DNA of 55,216 bases from NCBI RefSeq assembly GCF_016751895.1, contig NZ_JACVVM010000001.1, positions 1 through 55,216 of the forward strand. The letters are read 5' to 3'. A program made the translations under genes and the position numbers. Shown here piece by piece: positions 1 to 55,216 of the stretch. Source of the DNA: Candidatus Sarmatiella mevalonica (GTDB lineage: Bacteria > Pseudomonadota > Alphaproteobacteria > Rickettsiales > Rickettsiaceae). How positions within the stretch are numbered: the first letter of the stretch is position 1; each line of letters begins with the position of its first letter. The notes under the pieces are model-generated. The model was not told the DNA's origin. It saw only the letters and a program-made list of their open reading frames with translations, and ran no database searches.

Positions 1-386
1 CTTGTTCCAATAGGTAAAGGATCACCAGCTTTATGAATTTTAAAATCATGATCCCTGCCTTTATATGATTTCGAAACATTGCGAATTTGTCCAAATGAAT
101 TTACCCTTATTTCTGTTTTAAACGTATACTTCCTTTTCTTGCCTGAAAAATATTCCCTCTGTTTTTTGATAGGCTTTTCTATTATTTGCTCAGTAACATC
201 AATTAGCTGGGCCGCCTCTTCGTAACTTAATTCTCGATTCTTCTCAATTGCAACTAGACCAGCCATAAGCGGCTCTAGCTTCTTTATTATTATTTCAAAC
301 TTTTCTAGCTCCATGCCTTCTAGCCCCATGTCAAATAATCTTAAAAAAACTCTTGGATGTTTAGCAATTTTACTGTATCTTATCAT
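1..386 (-). CDS. IS5-family transposase, 3' truncated by window, internally shortened
   Basis: This is a DDE transposase of the IS5 (DDE_Tnp_4) type. Starting at the ATG at 386, the frame is open to the window edge (about 128 codons). The N-terminus (MIRYSKIAKHP..., then FLRLF) matches the usual start of this family. It passes directly from a segment ending KKLEP to the segment LMAGLVAIEKN, which normally lies after the helix-turn-helix block. About 60-70 residues, including the usual RTY...FGID-VCRII region seen at 7313-7390, are therefore missing in frame. The first catalytic Asp lies in IDVTEQ. The second Asp and the Glu would lie beyond the window. Confidence 0.75.
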   Translation of the reverse strand, partial: MIRYSKIAKHPRVFLRLFDMGLEGMELEKFEIIIKKLEPLMAGLVAIEKNRELSYEEAAQLIDVTEQIIEKPIKKQREYFSGKKRKYTFKTEIRVNSFGQIRNVSKSYKGRDHDFKIHKAGDPLPIGT

Positions 387-497
387 TGTGTGTAGTCTCT
401 TGTTGGTTAAAAATCAAGTTCTATACACGCTTTATAAAAAATATCAACCCCTCCCTGTAAGTAATTTCCAATTCTATATACTTACGCAAGAGGTCTA
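1..497 (-). mobile_element. IS5-family element, cut by the window start
   Basis: The transposase-side end of this insertion sequence is at 497, where the reverse strand begins TAGACCTCTTGCGTAAGT. This is the same terminal signature seen at 6596, 800 and 54425. The element is cut off at base 1. Bases 1-277 match 54940-55216 with only four differences that I count, in the same orientation. The 109 bases between the end and the transposase start are unlike those of the 6596 copy, so at least two IS5 subtypes are present. Confidence 0.85.
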
Positions 498-4603: not shown

Positions 4604-5539
4604 ATGAATATGTTAGCATCCATAGATAATAATTGCTCTTCTAGCTTAGGTCTAACACATCTAGAAGGCTTAGGAAACTTAAATATTACTGAATATATTA
4701 GAAAAATTAATGCCATTCCATCTCTTTCTAAAGAAGAAGAATTAGATCTGTCCAATAAATATATTCAATTCGCTGATTTAAAAGCCGCCGCAGCGCTCGT
4801 TACGAGTCACTTAAAATTGGTAGTAAAGGTAGCTTTTGCTTATCAAAGCTCGGGGTTGCTCTTGTCTGACTTAATCTCTGAGGGGACCTTAGGCCTGATG
4901 CATGCAGTAAAAAAATATAAGCCAGATTTAGGTTTTAGACTTTCTACATACGCTACCTGGTGGATTAAGGCTTATGTGAAAGAATTTATTTTGCGCTCCT
5001 GGTCCTTGGTGAAGGTGGCTAGTACAGTGAGCCAGAGAAAGCTCTTCTTCAGTCTAAATAAAATTAAAAATAAATTGCGCCAAATACATTGCAGAGACAT
5101 CGGGTATGATGATTTCCAAGAAATCGCAAAAAGTACTAATGCTTCTATAAGTGATATAGTAGAAATGGATGCTAGATTAAGTAAACGTGACGTTTCATTG
5201 GATGGAATAGTTTCTCATTCATCAGACGGCACTCCATGCAAATTAGTAGACTTGTTGCCATCTAACGCACCAAGCCAAGAAGCCGTAGTGATTGCGGAAG
5301 AAGAAACTGCGCTGCGCAAGGCGTTGTTACAGCAAGCCATCAACTCTCTGCATCCCCGAGAGGCTGAAATTTTTGTGGGGCGCATATTATCAAACCCCGC
5401 CTTGCCATTAAGGGAGCTGAGCGAAGCGCATGGTATTTCTAAAGAAAGAGTGAGGCAGATAGCAGAGAAAGCGCTAGAAAAGGTGAAGGCGTTCGTGCTA
5501 TCCAACGCTTCGCATCTCCTGCATTCTACCGATAAATAG
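4604..5539 (+). CDS. rpoH: RNA polymerase sigma-32 factor
   Basis: The heat-shock sigma factor. The 311-residue protein has sigma region 2 at about residues 83-133 (LLLSDLISEGTLGLMHAVKKY..., STYATWWIKAYVKEFILRSWSLVK), the RpoH-type continuation into SQRKLFFSL, and the region 4 helix-turn-helix near residues 262-292 (LPLRELSEAHGISKERVRQI). AAGAGGT precedes the ATG by 9 bases. The upstream leader contains a directly repeated AATTTTTTAAG. The gene is monocistronic and ends in a palindromic repeat 11 bp downstream that could fold as a hairpin in the message. Confidence 0.95.
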   Translation: MNMLASIDNNCSSSLGLTHLEGLGNLNITEYIRKINAIPSLSKEEELDLSNKYIQFADLKAAAALVTSHLKLVVKVAFAYQSSGLLLSDLISEGTLGLMHAVKKYKPDLGFRLSTYATWWIKAYVKEFILRSWSLVKVASTVSQRKLFFSLNKIKNKLRQIHCRDIGYDDFQEIAKSTNASISDIVEMDARLSKRDVSLDGIVSHSSDGTPCKLVDLLPSNAPSQEAVVIAEEETALRKALLQQAINSLHPREAEIFVGRILSNPALPLRELSEAHGISKERVRQIAEKALEKVKAFVLSNASHLLHSTDK

Positions 5540-5550
5540 GCATTTGCAAA

Positions 5551-5696
5551 TAGACCTCTTTCGAAACTCGCTCCTGAAAAACGCCGACTGTGTTTCGCTT
5601 TGAAACCATCACTTATGCTTTGTGCGCGCTCGAAGTTCCCCACCTTCACTCGTTTTTGCGTTTGTTTATGATTGAGCAGGTTTCGAAAGAGGTCCA
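5551..5696. repeat. Palindromic element, diverged subfamily
   Basis: 146 bp with inverted ends TAGACCTCTTTCGAAACTCG / GGTTTCGAAAGAGGTCCA. Its interior differs from the main 147-bp subfamily. It sits 11 bp after the rpoH stop. Confidence 0.8.
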
Positions 5697-6379: not shown

Positions 6380-6526
6380 TAGACCTCTTTCCTAACTCTA
6401 CTCCTGATGGCAACTTTGGCGACGCTGTCGATGCGCAAGTCCTCACGTACTTCAGTACGCTGCGGCTCTGTGCTTCGTATACTCCTCGCATTTGCTCATC
6501 AATGAGCGAGTTTCGAAAGAGGTCTA
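6380..6526. repeat. Palindromic element, main 147-bp subfamily
   Basis: Ends TAGACCTCTTTCCTAACTC / GCGAGTTTCGAAAGAGGTCTA. The same orientation and length as 54496-54642 with few differences. A TA dinucleotide stands at each end, as expected for a TA target duplication. Confidence 0.9.
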
Positions 6527-6865
6527 GTTAATAATTAGATAATCATCACAATTTGACTATTAAACATGAAACCTCTTTCCAAACCAGTTCATGATTAGAC
6601 CTGTTGCGTAAGTGAGAATATATCGCCTAATGATAGGAAGAGGCCTTGATTTTTTAAGACAGAAGGTATATATGGAGTTTATTTCAACACAAAACTACTC
6701 CATATATGGCAATATCATACACAAAAATCAGGAAACATCCAGGATTTTTTTTAAGATTATTTGGCATTAGTTGCGAAGAATTTGATATTTTAGTGAAGAA
6801 ACTTGAAGTATCATGAGCAAAGAAAGTCGTTGGCAAATACAAGAGGCCTGGTAGGTTTTATACTA

Positions 6866-7310
6866 TAGTAATTTAGATTGAATTAGATATAATTTTTCGT
6901 TATAATGAAGGAAAAATGACAAAAAGCTATAGCAATGATTCAAGAGAAAAGGTAGTGTAGAATATTTAGAAGCTGGGAATGGTTATGACCAAGCATCTAA
7001 ATTATTTAAAATAAGTGTATCAGCAATAGGAAGGTGGTACCGAAAATATAAAAAAGAAGGCAATTATCTTCTGGCCAAGTTGTAATTATGGACAATGCTT
7101 TTTTTCATAAATCTAAAAAGACAAAAGAATTGATTGAATCAGTAAATTGCAGAATCATTTTTTTGCCTCCATATTCACCAGATCTGAATCCAATAGAGAA
7201 ATTTTGGGCTAATATGAAATGTTGGATTAAAAATCAAATTACTGAATTTGATCAATTATATGAGGCTATTTCTTATTTCTTTAAAATACCTAATTCAACC
7301 TAAATTACTA
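6866..7310 (+). mobile_element. IS630-family element with internal deletion
   Basis: It is bounded by TAGTAATTTAGATTGAATTA (6866) and its inverse ending at 7310, with a TA on each side, the target duplication typical of IS630/Tc1-type elements. At 445 bp it is less than half of the usual length, because the middle of the transposase gene is missing. Confidence 0.85.
6916..7303 (+). pseudogene. IS630-family transposase, frameshifted and lacking its middle
   Basis: The N-terminal helix-turn-helix part (MTKSYSNDSREKVV, then in another frame EYLEAGNGYDQASKLFKISVSAIGRWYRKYKKEG) is broken by a 2-base insertion after codon 13 that creates a stop. The sequence then jumps to the C-terminal DDE part: MDNAFFHKSKKTKEL (second Asp) and FLPPYSPDLNPIEKFWANMK (Glu in NPIE). 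The first catalytic Asp region is absent. Confidence 0.85.
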
Positions 7311-8086
7311 TATCGTACTTACAGCACTCAAATGCAGATAGATTTTATGTTTGGGATCGATGTTTCGAGGGTATGCAGAATAATTAAAACTTTGAAACGA
7401 TTGGTCGCGAAGTTGGTTGCGATAGAAAAAGATCGCGTCCTAAGCTATGAAGAGACTGAACAGTTAATAGATGTAACGGAGCAAATAATTGAAAGGCCTA
7501 GCAAGAAGCAAAAAGATTCTGGTAAGAAACGTAGGCACACGCTCAAGACTAAAACCCTACCACGGCAAGGTTCATGATTTTAAAATTCATAAACAAAAAG
7601 ATCGTCTTCCGATAGATACCAATATTTATGCCGATTCCGGATATCAGGGGTTAAAGAAACTTTGCAAGAACGCCAAGACACCGATAAAAACACGAAAGAA
7701 AAAGCCCTTGAGTTACTGGCAAAAATATATATTGCTAAAAGACGTATAAAAGTTGAAAATATTATCGCTCAACTTAAAAACTTTCGCATTTTATCGAATC
7801 GTTACCGTAATAAATGCAAGGCTATTAATTTCAAGAATGGATTTTATAATAAAGCATTAGCGGCATAAAACACATCAGCTCTATACCTAACATACTCTGT
7901 ATTTTTTAAGTTCATAACTACTTTCTTACTTACACAGCAGCTCTATTGACAAATGCGAGGAGCATACGAAGCGCAGAGCAGCAGCGTACATAAAAAGTAT
8001 GTGAGGATATTCACACATCGACAGCGACGAAGCAGTTGCCATCAGGAGTAGAGCTAAGAAAGGGGTCCATTAAAAAAAGCAAAAGA

Positions 8087-18879: not shown

Positions 18880-19185
18880 GAGACCTTTTGCATAGCTCGC
18901 GCGGTCAAGGGCGAATGAAAGTGCGAGACTTCAAGTGTGCATATAAGTCAAACGAGAGTTTTGAATTAGACCTCTTTCGAAACTCGCTCATGATGAGCAA
19001 ATGCGAGAAGTATACGAAGCACAGAGCCGCAGCGTACATGAAGTACGCGAGGACTCGAGTATCGACAGCGTCGCCACAGTTGCTATCAGGAGTAGAGTTA
19101 GGAAAGAGGTCCATTGAAGCAACGCGGCAATTGGTGTGAAGGAGCAGCAATTGGCGTGAAGGAGTAGAATCTGAAAGGAGGTCTA
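18880..19185. repeat. Palindromic element split by another
   Basis: The left end AGACCTTTTGCATAGCTCGCG begins at 18881. The right end ..CTGAAAGGAGGTCTA finishes at 19185. Between them, at 18967-19113, sits a full main-subfamily element. The right part contains a near-duplicated GCAATTGGTGTGAAGGAG / GCAATTGGCGTGAAGGAG. Confidence 0.55.
18967..19113. repeat. Palindromic element, main 147-bp subfamily
   Basis: Ends TAGACCTCTTTCGAAACTCG / GTTAGGAAAGAGGTCCA. Opposite orientation to the copies at 6380, 47525 and 54496. The open frame that runs through it (18888-19139) is not treated as a gene. Confidence 0.9.
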
Positions 19186-24462: not shown

Positions 24463-24581
24463 GATTTTTCAAGACAGAAGGTATATATGAAGTTTATTTC
24501 AACACAAAACTACTCCATGTATGGCAATATCATACACAAAAATCATGAAACATCCAGAAATTTTTTAAGATTATTTGGCAT
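24463..24581 (+). mobile_element. IS5-family 5' fragment
   Basis: It matches 6646-6770 of the IS5 copy (leader and first transposase codons, ATGGCAATATCATAC...). The outer terminal repeat has been lost; it begins at GATTTTTCAAGACAG. It ends at GGCAT where an IS630 end begins, the same junction as at 629/630. The 100 bases before it (24361-24462) hold no gene. Confidence 0.75.
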
Positions 24582-24877
24582 TATAGTAATTTAGGTTGAA
24601 TTAGGTATTTTAAAGAAATAAGAAATAGCCTCATATAATTGATCAAATGCAGTAATTTGATTTTTAATCCAACATTTCATATTAGCTCAAAATTTCTCTA
24701 TTGGACTCAGATCTGGTGAATAGACCTCTTGCATAACCTAAAAATGAGGAAGGCAGCATACTCTAGTATGTGAGGAGCGCAAAGGAGTTTTGACAACAAA
24801 ATTACCATTTAGAATAGGTTATGCAAGAGGTCTATTTTATCGCATTATATACTCAAATTTCAACTTAATTTACTATA
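24582..24877 (-). mobile_element. IS630-family remnant carrying a palindromic element
   Basis: 24582-24720 is the reverse strand of the C-terminal part of the IS630 transposase (SPD-(L)SPIEKF-ANMKCWIKNQITAFDQLYEAISYFFKIPNST, with a stop for Trp) plus its terminal repeat. 24835-24877 holds the other end (TATAGTAAATTAAGTTGAAA on the minus strand). The palindromic element at 24721-24834 lies between. The rest of the transposase is gone. Confidence 0.65.
24721..24834. repeat. Palindromic element, short GCATAACC subfamily
   Basis: 114 bp with ends TAGACCTCTTGCATAACCTA / ATAGGTTATGCAAGAGGTCTA, close to perfect over 19 bases. It shares its interior (CATACTCTAGTATGTGAGGAG ...) with 27804-27947 but lacks about 30 bp present there. 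The following stretch to 25036 holds no gene, only an imperfect TCACCT/AGGTGA inverted repeat. Confidence 0.9.
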
Positions 24878-27803: not shown

Positions 27804-27947
27804 TAGACCTCTTGCATAACCTAAAAATGAAAGAGGAATTTTTAGGAAAAATGATGTTGAGCGCCGCAGCATACTCTAGTATATGAGGAGCGCAAAGGAG
27901 TTTTGACAACAAAATTACCTCACGGAATAGGTTATGCAAGAGGTCTA
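27804..27947. repeat. Palindromic element, GCATAACC subfamily, long form
   Basis: 144 bp with ends TAGACCTCTTGCATAACCTA / ATAGGTTATGCAAGAGGTCTA. It forms the broken edge of the gene remnant at 27540-27803. Confidence 0.9.
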
Positions 27948-47249: not shown

Positions 47250-50225
47250 TTATCGTTTTATCCATCCCAAGCCTCCATTTCCTTCTCTTCTGCCGTTATT
47301 ATCTTCTCTCCACGTCTTTGAACCAGTATTTGCTTGTTGGCGCTTTCTGTCGCTTTCTGTTTTGCTTTCAATTCTTGCCGCCATCTCTTTCACGTTAGGT
47401 CTAGATTGGGACTTATCACGCTCTACGCTCTCTGATATTTTACGCTCATCAGTCTTTTGCCCGCTTGTTTTTGTTTTCTTTGTTAGGTCAACAATGCTCT
47501 TGATCTGCTGCGCCTTCTGTTCATTAGACCTCTTTCCTAACTCTACTTCTGATGGCAACCGCTTCGTCGCTCCGATGCGCAAGTCCCCACGTACTTCATG
47601 TACGCTGCGGCTCTGTGCTTCGTATACTCCTCGCATTTGCTCATCATGAACGAGTTTCGAAAGAGGTCTATTATTCAAATGCTGTACTGTATGAGCGCTC
47701 TTATCCACATTCGTCCATTTCGCACCTCCATTTCCTTCTCCCACACCTGCCTCATCTACTTTCCATCGCTTTCCGCTCTTATGACGCCCTGCTATCGCGG
47801 AGCCGGCGACCTGCGACTGGAGCTGTTGCGTATCTCTTTGATTCCGAATATTCCGCGAATCCTGCTTTGTATGATCCGAGTTTTGTGCAATAGGAGTCTC
47901 GCGTCTATCTGATTGTGTTAGCTGATCTTGTACGTGAATAGAATGCGATTTTTTCGGAGATTTACTTAGCTGCACCTGTTTTTGGACGTTTTGCACCAAT
48001 GCCACGACGTCTTGATTTACTTGCGTACTCTTCAGTGTATCTTTGTTATGTCGCACACCATTCTTATCATTCTGCATCTCATTAACTTTCTTCATTATTT
48101 CATGCTGATTGTTTCTCGCGTATTCATGCATCGACCCGCCAACGAACTTTTCCGTATTTATATTCTGATCTATTTTGTGATTCAGCCCCTGCATAGTATT
48201 ATTTATAGTGTTTGAGATATTCTCATCAACTTTTTGCACAAACTGTTCAGCATTACTATTTATACTATTCACAGCATTATCTATACCTTCTTGTATATTA
48301 TCAATAGCACTTTGCGTTTTAGATTGTATTTGTTTCTCTATTTTTAGTTGTCCTTGACGAACTTGCTCTGTTGCATACTGAATCTTTCGCTCGCCAGTTT
48401 GTACTAACTGCTCCGCTTTATTCTGTATACTATCTAAACTTTTTTCCGCATTATTTTTAATAGTATGAATGGTGCTGATCGCATTACCTATTTGGTCATT
48501 TAAATGCGTTACTTCTTTAAATGCAAGAGACTTTACTTGATCAGTTTGCTTTAAAAACAATAGTTTTATTCGTTGATAAAGTAGCGCAAACATTTCTTTT
48601 ATTTTAGTTATAATACCCTGACTCACCTGTCTCTCTTCCATCGCTTTTAAAGACAAATACTGATAATCTTTGTCATATATATCAGTCTCTGTAATAAGAT
48701 CATCTATATCGTCAGGATTAGTAGTTTCCGTAATATAAGACTTTGTATCATTGTCATCATATCTACTGTTATTCGCATTATCTCTATCACTCTCTGTATA
48801 CAATGAAGAATTGTAAGGTGCAGATTCTCTATATGGCTCGTCAAATCTATCACTTGAACTGACGGGTAACACCTGAGGATTGTTGCTAGCTCCCTGCCCT
48901 GCATTGTCCACCTTTACATCATCTTGGCCAGCTGTGGAGGGTGTTTGATTATTTGTTTGCTTCGTATTGGTAGTATTAGATGAGTTATTATTAATTGCAG
49001 GGATTACAGTATCTGGCTGCACATTAGAATTATTCGGAACCGGAATAGAATTATTAGTATGGGTAATAACATACTGCGATGGATTAACAATCTCCGATAC
49101 ACGTGGTGTTTGCTGCTGCAATCCTTGGTTACTTAGAAAGTTATCATTAGGCGTAGAAGACGTTTGATTATTTGTTTGCTTCGTATTGGTAGTATTAGAT
49201 GCGGTATTAGATAAGTTATTATTAACTTCAGGAGTTGTAATTGTCTGCTGCGGTTCTTGCGGCCACGGCCTGATCGGTTGCTGGGTTTGATTACTTGGAA
49301 TGTTATTATTAATATTCGCACCTGGAGTATTTATACTCGCTCCCGGAATGTCTTTCTGAACAGTCAAAGTATCTTGCTGTGGAACGGAAATATTCTGCTG
49401 AACCCGCTCCTGCGAGCGCGCCAAATCATACTCTCGCACTCGTGCCGTCAATGCCTCATACTGTGTTTTATTTACTGGCACAGTATAGCATTTATTATTT
49501 ACCTCAAAAAACCCAATACCAGTTTTTGGATCAAATTGCAGAGGCGTTGGCGTTACCACAGAAGCTATCTTTCCATTTGAATCAAAGGTGACGCTAAAAT
49601 GCAAAGCGTTATTTCCTTCAATAGGTATCATGGATCCGCCACTTGTATCATATAAAACCAAAGACACGGTTACATCTTTAGCTGTATATTTTGTAAAATC
49701 TACAGTTCTATAGCCTTGCAACTGATATTTACTCCCGCTGGTACTGGTTATAGATATAGATGAATCATAATTATATTTCGTTTCTACAAGTGAGTTATCG
49801 ACACCATCTCCACCTAACTTTCTCTGTATAATCTTAACGCCTTGTTGTTGATTATTGAAATTATTAGTACTGTCTTCCTGCCAAGAAATTTTACCTTTGC
49901 CCTTATCGTCGCCAGCTGCTGCAAAAATAATCTTTTGTACTTTTTGAAAATCATTTAATGCGCCACGAATACTCTGCTCATTGAACGTCTTATGCATTTC
50001 CTCCATTTCTTCCACGCTAAGAAAGTGATGAGAAGATCCACTATACTTTTGTGCTTGGAGAGAGTCAACTCCATGAAAAATACTGCGAACATTGGTTAAA
50101 TGTGCTCGATATGCATTTCTTAGGTTTTCTATATCTACCTTAGCCTGTTGATCATTTACATTCATAGATTGCTCTGAACCCGATGCGAGTCGTATATTAC
50201 CTTGCACTCCAGTGAATTGTGACAT
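47250..50225 (-). CDS. 991-residue low-complexity and coiled-coil protein, unknown, with in-frame repeat insertion
   Basis: No known family is recognised. Residues 1-270 look folded, with beta-rich segments (SSISITSTSGSKYQLQGYRTV...). About 280-530 is Asn/Gln/Ser/Thr/Pro-rich, with two versions of a NTTNTKQTNNQT segment. About 555-750 is long amphipathic helix or coiled coil (repeated SINSNAEQFVQKVDENIS-like units). The C-terminal quarter is basic and polar. A motif W-x(2)-D-x(2)-G-x(2)-EGNGG-x(2)-W occurs twice (about residues 821-840 and at the extreme C-terminus). Residues about 852-900 are encoded by a palindromic element. No signal peptide. A T4SS substrate or structural protein is conceivable but unproven. 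Confidence 0.8.
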   Translation of the reverse strand: MSQFTGVQGNIRLASGSEQSMNVNDQQAKVDIENLRNAYRAHLTNVRSIFHGVDSLQAQKYSGSSHHFLSVEEMEEMHKTFNEQSIRGALNDFQKVQKIIFAAAGDDKGKGKISWQEDSTNNFNNQQQGVKIIQRKLGGDGVDNSLVETKYNYDSSISITSTSGSKYQLQGYRTVDFTKYTAKDVTVSLVLYDTSGGSMIPIEGNNALHFSVTFDSNGKIASVVTPTPLQFDPKTGIGFFEVNNKCYTVPVNKTQYEALTARVREYDLARSQERVQQNISVPQQDTLTVQKDIPGASINTPGANINNNIPSNQTQQPIRPWPQEPQQTITTPEVNNNLSNTASNTTNTKQTNNQTSSTPNDNFLSNQGLQQQTPRVSEIVNPSQYVITHTNNSIPVPNNSNVQPDTVIPAINNNSSNTTNTKQTNNQTPSTAGQDDVKVDNAGQGASNNPQVLPVSSSDRFDEPYRESAPYNSSLYTESDRDNANNSRYDDNDTKSYITETTNPDDIDDLITETDIYDKDYQYLSLKAMEERQVSQGIITKIKEMFALLYQRIKLLFLKQTDQVKSLAFKEVTHLNDQIGNAISTIHTIKNNAEKSLDSIQNKAEQLVQTGERKIQYATEQVRQGQLKIEKQIQSKTQSAIDNIQEGIDNAVNSINSNAEQFVQKVDENISNTINNTMQGLNHKIDQNINTEKFVGGSMHEYARNNQHEIMKKVNEMQNDKNGVRHNKDTLKSTQVNQDVVALVQNVQKQVQLSKSPKKSHSIHVQDQLTQSDRRETPIAQNSDHTKQDSRNIRNQRDTQQLQSQVAGSAIAGRHKSGKRWKVDEAGVGEGNGGAKWTNVDKSAHTVQHLNNRPLSKLVHDEQMRGVYEAQSRSVHEVRGDLRIGATKRLPSEVELGKRSNEQKAQQIKSIVDLTKKTKTSGQKTDERKISESVERDKSQSRPNVKEMAARIESKTESDRKRQQANTGSKTWREDNNGRREGNGGLGWIKR
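47525..47670. repeat. Palindromic element inside a coding gene
   Basis: Main-subfamily copy, 146 bp with TA at both ends, or 144 bp net of one TA duplication (48 codons). It is one base shorter than the 147-bp copies at 6380, 18967 and 54496, the difference lying at 47557-47570. In the host gene it reads RPLSKLVHDEQMRGVYEAQ ... ELGKRSN with no stop. Confidence 0.95.
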
Positions 50226-54323: not shown

Positions 54324-54495
54324 GATTCGCGTCAAGCATGACTTTTGTGATGTTGATTTGACTAACTCGTTATCGGAATATCACTAATCATTGTAATAAT
54401 GTATCCACTGCATACATCTCTCATTAGACCTCTTGCGTAAGTATTTAATTAACAATTAGCCAATGTGAAGGGTGAAGAAGGTTGTTCGTGATTAT

Positions 54496-54642
54496 TAGAC
54501 CTCTTTCCTAACTCTACTCCTGATGGCAACTGTGGCGACGCTGTCGATGCGCAAGTCCTCACGTACTTCATGTACGCTGCGGCTCTGTGCTTCGTATACT
54601 CCTCGCATTTGCTCATCATGAGCGAGTTTCGAAAGAGGTCTA
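54496..54642. repeat. Palindromic element, main 147-bp subfamily, inside IS5
   Basis: Ends TAGACCTCTTTCCTAACTC / GCGAGTTTCGAAAGAGGTCTA with TA on both sides. It lies between the transposase stop and the outer end of the IS5 copy, so it inserted into the IS after or during its residence here. Confidence 0.9.
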
Positions 54643-54650
54643 TTTTAGCA

Positions 54651-55216
54651 TCAAGCGGCAAGTAATTTATTAACGAAATCATTTTTGAAATTAACAATTC
54701 CAGCAACAATATTAAACTTTAGATTATAACCCCTACGCTTATTGCGATATCTATGAGATAAAATACGAAAATTCTTTAGCTCTGCAATAATATTCTCAAC
54801 CTTGATCCGCCTCTTAGAGACAATATGGTTGTATTTCTTTTGCCAGTAAGTTAAAGGCTTTTTCTTTGTTTTCTTAATAGGCGTTTTAGCATTATTATGT
54901 TTTTTCTTTAAGCCCTGATAGCCAGAATCAGCATAAACCCTTGTTCCAATAGGTAAAGAATCATCAGCTTTATGAATTTTAAAATCATGATCCCTGCCTT
55001 TATACGATTTCGAAACATTGCGAATTTGTCCAAATGAATTTACCCTTATTTCTGTTTTAAACGTATACTTCCTTTTCTTGCCTGAAAAATATTCTCTCTG
55101 TTTTTTGATAGGCTTTTCTATTATTTGCTCAGTAACATCAATTAGCTGGGCCGCCTCTTCGTAACTTAATTCTCGATTCTTCTCAATTGCAACTAGACCA
55201 GCCATAAGCGGCTCTA
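54651..55216 (-). CDS. IS5-family transposase, 5' truncated by window
   Basis: An open frame of 188 codons to the window edge with the whole catalytic core: IDVTEQ (first Asp), ADDSLPIGTRVYADSGYQG (second Asp), and RRIKVENIIAELKNFRILSHRYRNKRRGYNLKFNIVAGIVNF (Glu in KVEN). No internal stop or frameshift is visible, so unlike the 6706 copy it may be functional if the missing N-terminus is intact. The unit ends 8 bp from the inserted palindromic element. Confidence 0.88.
   Translation of the reverse strand, partial: EPLMAGLVAIEKNRELSYEEAAQLIDVTEQIIEKPIKKQREYFSGKKRKYTFKTEIRVNSFGQIRNVSKSYKGRDHDFKIHKADDSLPIGTRVYADSGYQGLKKKHNNAKTPIKKTKKKPLTYWQKKYNHIVSKRRIKVENIIAELKNFRILSHRYRNKRRGYNLKFNIVAGIVNFKNDFVNKLLAA

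Follow-up and report, generated by a model that had tools for sequence, protein, structure and literature searches.

An in-frame RPE1 copy in a long gene of Candidatus Sarmatiella mevalonica, and IS5-family elements that probably mobilized its family

A gene of 991 codons in Candidatus Sarmatiella mevalonica reads without a stop through a palindromic repeat, which raises the question of what the repeat is, how such repeats move, and how one can settle in a protein gene and leave it open. The gene lies in the window, by which we mean the whole stretch of 55,216 nucleotides analyzed here (positions 1 to 55,216 of contig NZ_JACVVM010000001.1, assembly GCF_016751895.1). In-frame insertion of Rickettsia palindromic elements (RPE) has been on record since 2000, which makes the copy in the window one more case. 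Such insertions, those of RPE-1 included, are established in the literature (PMC3767692, PMC2229807, PMC10969869), and a 2024 review of MITEs gives no parent element for RPE (PMC10969869). The reading that we favor, with a probability of roughly 0.87, is that the segment is a copy of RPE1, a non-autonomous MITE mobilized by an IS5-family transposase, which added 147 bp and left its host gene open.

A diverged RPE1 copy of the minority length

The element exactly fills codons 853 to 900 of the gene (AGA CCT CTT ... TCT, translated as RPLSKLVHDEQM...ELGKRS) and contains no stop, in agreement with an earlier note on this DNA, which had placed the repeat inside the open frame of the 991-residue protein (ORF 47250-50225, minus strand). 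Its termini are AGACCTCTT...AAGAGGTCT, and the coding strand begins with AGACCTCTTTCGAAACTCG and ends with GGAAAGAGGTCT. Folded as a single strand, it is predicted to reach -30.9 kcal/mol, compared with -16.4 kcal/mol for shuffled sequences (z = -5.1). A 3-bp duplication, ATT/ATT, brackets the 144 bp and brings the total gain to 147 bp or 49 codons, of which 48 come from the element and 1 from the duplication. The earlier note had counted 144 bp and 48 codons after excluding one copy of a TA target; the TA gives way to ATT/ATT, and the net gain becomes 49 codons. The features of the window are collected in Table 1.

Table 1. Coordinates of the host gene, the palindromic copies and the insertion sequence parts in the window
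Feature	Position	Strand	Remarks
Host gene, 991 aa	47250..50225	-	without Pfam family; coding-like codon usage on both sides of insert
RPE1-type palindromic element	47526..47669	-	144 bp; in-frame 48 residues RPLSKLVHDEQMRGVYEAQSRSVHEVRGDLRIGATKRLPSEVELGKRS; codons 853-900
Target-site duplication, left copy on + strand	47523..47525	.	ATT (coding strand AAT, codon N901)
Target-site duplication, right copy on + strand	47670..47672	.	ATT (coding strand AAT, codon N852)
145-bp (frame-breaking) copy	54497..54641	-	ATT/ATT; just downstream of IS transposase stop codon
145-bp copy	18968..19112	+	ATT/ATT
145-bp copy	6381..6525	-	AGT/AGT
144-bp element-like copy	5552..5695	+	AAT/AAT; just downstream of ORF 4604-5539
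IS5-family insertion sequence, 3' part	54425..55216	-	terminus TAGACCTCTTGCGTAAGTA at 54425; transposase DDE_Tnp_4/DDE_Tnp_1
Same IS, other copy, 5' part	1..497	-	terminus at 497

The peptide predicted from the window element aligns with positions 1 to 48 of the 48 in the NCBIfam RPE1 model (TIGR01045) at 14.3 bits (E 0.031), below the cutoff of 30 bits, so its membership rests on a chain through relatives. Peptides of the same element from those relatives score 75.2 and 62.1 bits (E 2.8e-21 and 3.4e-17) over 48 of 48 positions, and the window peptide aligns with them without gaps, at 42% identity to the first sequence of the alignment. At the DNA level, the sister copy at 54496-54642 aligns along its whole length with Torix and g2 copies (the 146-bp TAGACC..GGTCTA form) at 70 to 80% identity, and an alignment of eight copies that includes the window element has a mean column identity of 85%. 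By these comparisons, the window element is a diverged copy of the known RPE1. Its 48 translated residues fall in a family that is spread across the Rickettsiaceae and aligns with all 48 positions of the curated RPE1 domain. The RPE-like character proposed in the earlier note is borne out by these relatives, but the contrast that it drew with IS-type ends was needless: RPE1 of the Torix group has the same ends, and RPE1 of the Rickettsiaceae genus g10 has a close variant of them.

In that genus, which is probably Rickettsia itself, TIGR01045 scored above its cutoff in all 21 genomes sampled, compared with 0 of 14 control genomes; the copies there are mostly 144 bp, the usual length of RPE1 in other genera, with ends such as AGACATCTT and AAGATGTCT. 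Scanning named genomes with four close RPE1 peptides as the query returned 79 loci, nearly all from genomes named "Rickettsia endosymbiont of ...", which we take to be mostly of the Torix group. At 38 of these 79 loci, the frame through the element is open for at least 150 more codons, a count that the search raises by favoring open copies. A search for RPE1 on plasmids gave no match. The window copy thus has the RPE1 features of a 48-codon open element with palindromic ends, present in frame in many unrelated genes and in one fixed reading frame, but it differs in its divergence, in its ends (the sampled Rickettsia-type genus commonly has AGACATCTT where the window copy has AGACCTCTT), and in belonging to a genome in which a 145-bp, frame-breaking form has multiplied in a large burst. 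Wolbachia palindromic elements (WPE) and RPE-4, RPE-6, and RPE-7 are likewise palindromic repeats in genes of Rickettsiales; unlike RPE1, these elements have been proposed as a separate lineage with ATGAC motifs (PMC3767692), and we set them apart by that description.

The repeat is not a product of chance: about 40 DNA copies at 91 to 100% identity occur in the 1.27-Mb genome, among the matches listed. A genome-wide search for the peptide, which the earlier note had called for, gave 120 RPE1-like matches at an E value of 1e-5 or better among the matches listed, some of them fragments and several in frame in genes; in-frame copies are found in lpxK, cydB, tolA, a trhO relative, and terL (phage terminase gene). 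In this genome the predominant form has 145 bp (22 distinct copies among the matches listed) and, together with its 3-bp duplication, adds 148 bp and breaks the frame. The window element is of the minority 144-bp form (7 copies among the matches listed), not of the main subfamily to which it had been assigned; the accompanying claim that three relatives in the window would break the frame stands, with 148 bp in place of 145. No inspected 145-bp copy lies in an ORF of 200 codons or more, and three 144-bp copies do.

The 145-bp variant (the window copies and loci L009 to L030) represents a recent expansion in this genome. Older, diverged RPE1 copies are often within ORFs, but the protein search is biased toward such copies.

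Target duplications, shared ends, and empty sites

If RPE1 moves by transposition, its copies should resemble those of some transposase-bearing element in their ends and in their target sites. Identical 3-bp flanks were present at 80 of 93 named Torix-group copies (re-pairing of flanks: 35 expected, maximum of 49 in 2000) and at 26 of 38 own-genome copies among the matches listed (14 expected, maximum of 24), and in both sets the trinucleotide duplicated outside AGACC...GGTCT is nearly always ANT. Among copies from the probable Rickettsia genus, 13 of 25 had matching flanks, with 7.7 expected (p 0.004). A 2007 review marked the target duplication of RPE with a question mark and observed that some copies have TA at their ends (PMC2229807). 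We reject TA as the target because the agreement between the two flanks extends beyond it and fits a 3-bp ANT duplication.

IS5-family insertion sequences (NCBIfam NF033581, Pfam DDE_Tnp_4) offer such a counterpart. In a related genome, G024, a 908-bp element, matched at least 51 times, carries AGACCTCTTTCGAAACT at both ends, identical to the ends of RPE1; its transposase gene consists of two overlapping frames, and ANT duplications flank six of the six copies read. Elements in G022 and G034 end in close variants (AGACCTCTTTCGAAACTGG and AGACTTCTTTCGAAACT, respectively), and G010 and G035 have similar IS with related ends. The contig studied here itself begins and ends within one multi-copy IS5-family element with perfect 19-bp ends, TAGACCTCTTGCGTAAGTA (positions 1-277 equal 54940-55216 at 99%), and an RPE1 copy is nested in one of the two parts. 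The terminus of the abundant IS of this genome, AGACCTCTTGCGTAAGTA, matches RPE1 unbroken only over its first 9 bp, and one IS end of the RPE1-matching type, AGACCTCTTTCGAAACTCATTTA, lies near a transposase fragment on another contig. The exact matches of 17 to 18 bp to the RPE1 ends come from IS copies of related genomes and from one end in this genome. The suspicion in the earlier note that the repeats look IS-derived fits well, as both the ends and the target duplication have the form found in IS5-family insertion sequences. The likeness is limited to the terminal inverted repeat of 17 to 18 bp and the ANT duplication: the IS is 908 bp long and carries a transposase gene, whereas RPE1 has none, and no further common sequence was seen between the two.

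Comparison of related genomes at the DNA level shows the same family inserted in frame at empty sites in lpxK, era, and ugd. The lpxK site is filled in G035 by a 147-bp element with an AAT duplication (+150 bp) and is empty, reading uninterrupted as GAGTAATGTTG, in G060; left and right of the site, the two genomes are about 97% identical over 2 kb and 1.2 kb, respectively. The era gene is filled in G024 (144-bp element, +147 bp) and empty in G001, with flanks 92 to 94% identical, and ugd is filled in G001 (+144 bp) and empty in G024, without a duplication.

The alternative that survives best is that RPE1 is not mobilized by IS5-family enzymes at all, the common 17- to 18-bp ends having arisen by IS capture or by convergence and the element having spread by recombination or retro-copying. 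The case for movement by an IS5 transposase is, after all, built from sequence, and some genomes that bear RPE1 have no detectable transposase of this kind: one of the RPE1-end type was looked for in G001, G003, G019, and G025 and none was seen there now, and of eight RPE1-bearing relatives searched with the PF13359 profile, G010 and G035 alone had transposases. Activity in such genomes would therefore be past or due to more distant enzymes. This alternative nevertheless strikes us as unlikely, given that the ends and the ANT duplication match jointly, that there are precise empty sites with a duplication, and that the two ends within each RPE1 copy agree at 15.9 of 17 positions compared with 13.7 for re-paired ends (maximum of 14.3), as would be predicted if each were a transposase site.

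We accordingly consider it probable that RPE1 is a MITE of IS5-family insertion sequences and that the sum of 144 bp and a 3-bp ANT duplication, a whole number of codons, helps explain why copies that keep the frame are so often found in genes. As a non-autonomous transposable element of the Rickettsiaceae, RPE1 would be recognized by an IS5-family transposase at its 17- to 18-bp terminal inverted repeats (AGACCTCTTTCGAAACT...) and inserted at an ANT trinucleotide, which would be duplicated, as the flanking signatures suggest. The usual 144-bp element being stop-free in one frame, 147 bp would amount to 49 codons, so that an element arriving in a suitable phase and orientation may leave a gene open. 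RPE1 shares with the MITEs ERIC, RUP, and Correia/NEMIS (PMC2229807, PMC10969869) a short, non-autonomous form, terminal inverted repeats, and sometimes an open frame, but differs from them in that its length and duplication together make whole codons (144 + 3) and in its frequent copies within genes.

Other repeats in the window also have IS-like features. A second palindromic family, at 24721-24834 and 27804-27947, has ends TAGACCTCTTGCATAACC...GGTTATGCAAGAGGTCTA and is probably a further MITE of the same IS5-type group. Positions 628-800, 6596-6770, 7172-7312, and 24463-24722 hold another repeat, IS-like and partly decayed, whose ends are TAGACCTGTTGCGTAAGTGAGAAT.

The host gene and the fate of the insert

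Whether the insert is part of a protein depends on the gene that carries it. The ORF could be spurious or decaying, with an RPE-like or intergenic MITE that is open by accident and without real translation, as might be expected of a protein for which a Pfam or NCBIfam family was looked for and none found, whose C-terminal half is of low complexity, and in whose genome the young copies lie mostly outside long ORFs. We regard this as very unlikely, as a single frame is open for 991 codons, the same element occurs in frame within clear housekeeping genes, and the N-terminal region has homologues in several other genomes (weak similarity over about residues 67 to 320 to proteins in several Rickettsiaceae, with multiple copies in some relatives). 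Codon usage also favors the annotated frame, with a log score of -3.91 before the insert and -3.99 in the last 91 codons after it; none of the other five frames does better than -4.27. The gene thus appears to be translated beyond the insert. No orthologue of the gene reaching the insertion point was found in 58 genomes searched or in a further contig scan, and no Pfam match was found for the 48-residue peptide. The protein has a long coiled or low-complexity tail.

Insertions of this kind persist in proteins as extra hydrophilic segments, as in lpxK, era, and ugd of relatives and in lpxK, cydB, and others here, and the insert in the 991-residue protein lies near the C terminus in a repetitive, probably flexible region. 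Most likely it is tolerated and serves no function. That it is kept for a selected function, as a domesticated segment, is the least probable of the alternatives: among the matches listed, 18 of 28 older, more diverged full-length copies of this genome lie inside long ORFs, but the search detects old copies by their conserved frame and so biases this count. The same segment occurs in unrelated proteins, close relatives keep the gene without the segment, and an enzyme described in the literature that carries an RPE insert was active with changed substrate affinity, which was read as a neutral or slightly detrimental case (PMC2229807). In lpxK, the inserts of separate lineages (L008 in this genome, L197 and L222 in the Torix group) lie about 15 residues from each other in almost the same variable loop, which suggests independent insertions.

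What is new here concerns mobility, in that insertion sequences with the ends and target sites of RPE1 in related genomes point to how RPE1 moves. Our search of the open literature found no parent IS of RPE named in print; subscription papers were mostly outside its scope, and priority is therefore uncertain. With a concrete transposase whose element has matching ends, and with precise empty sites in related genomes, both the movement of RPE1 and its habit of keeping reading frames become directly testable.
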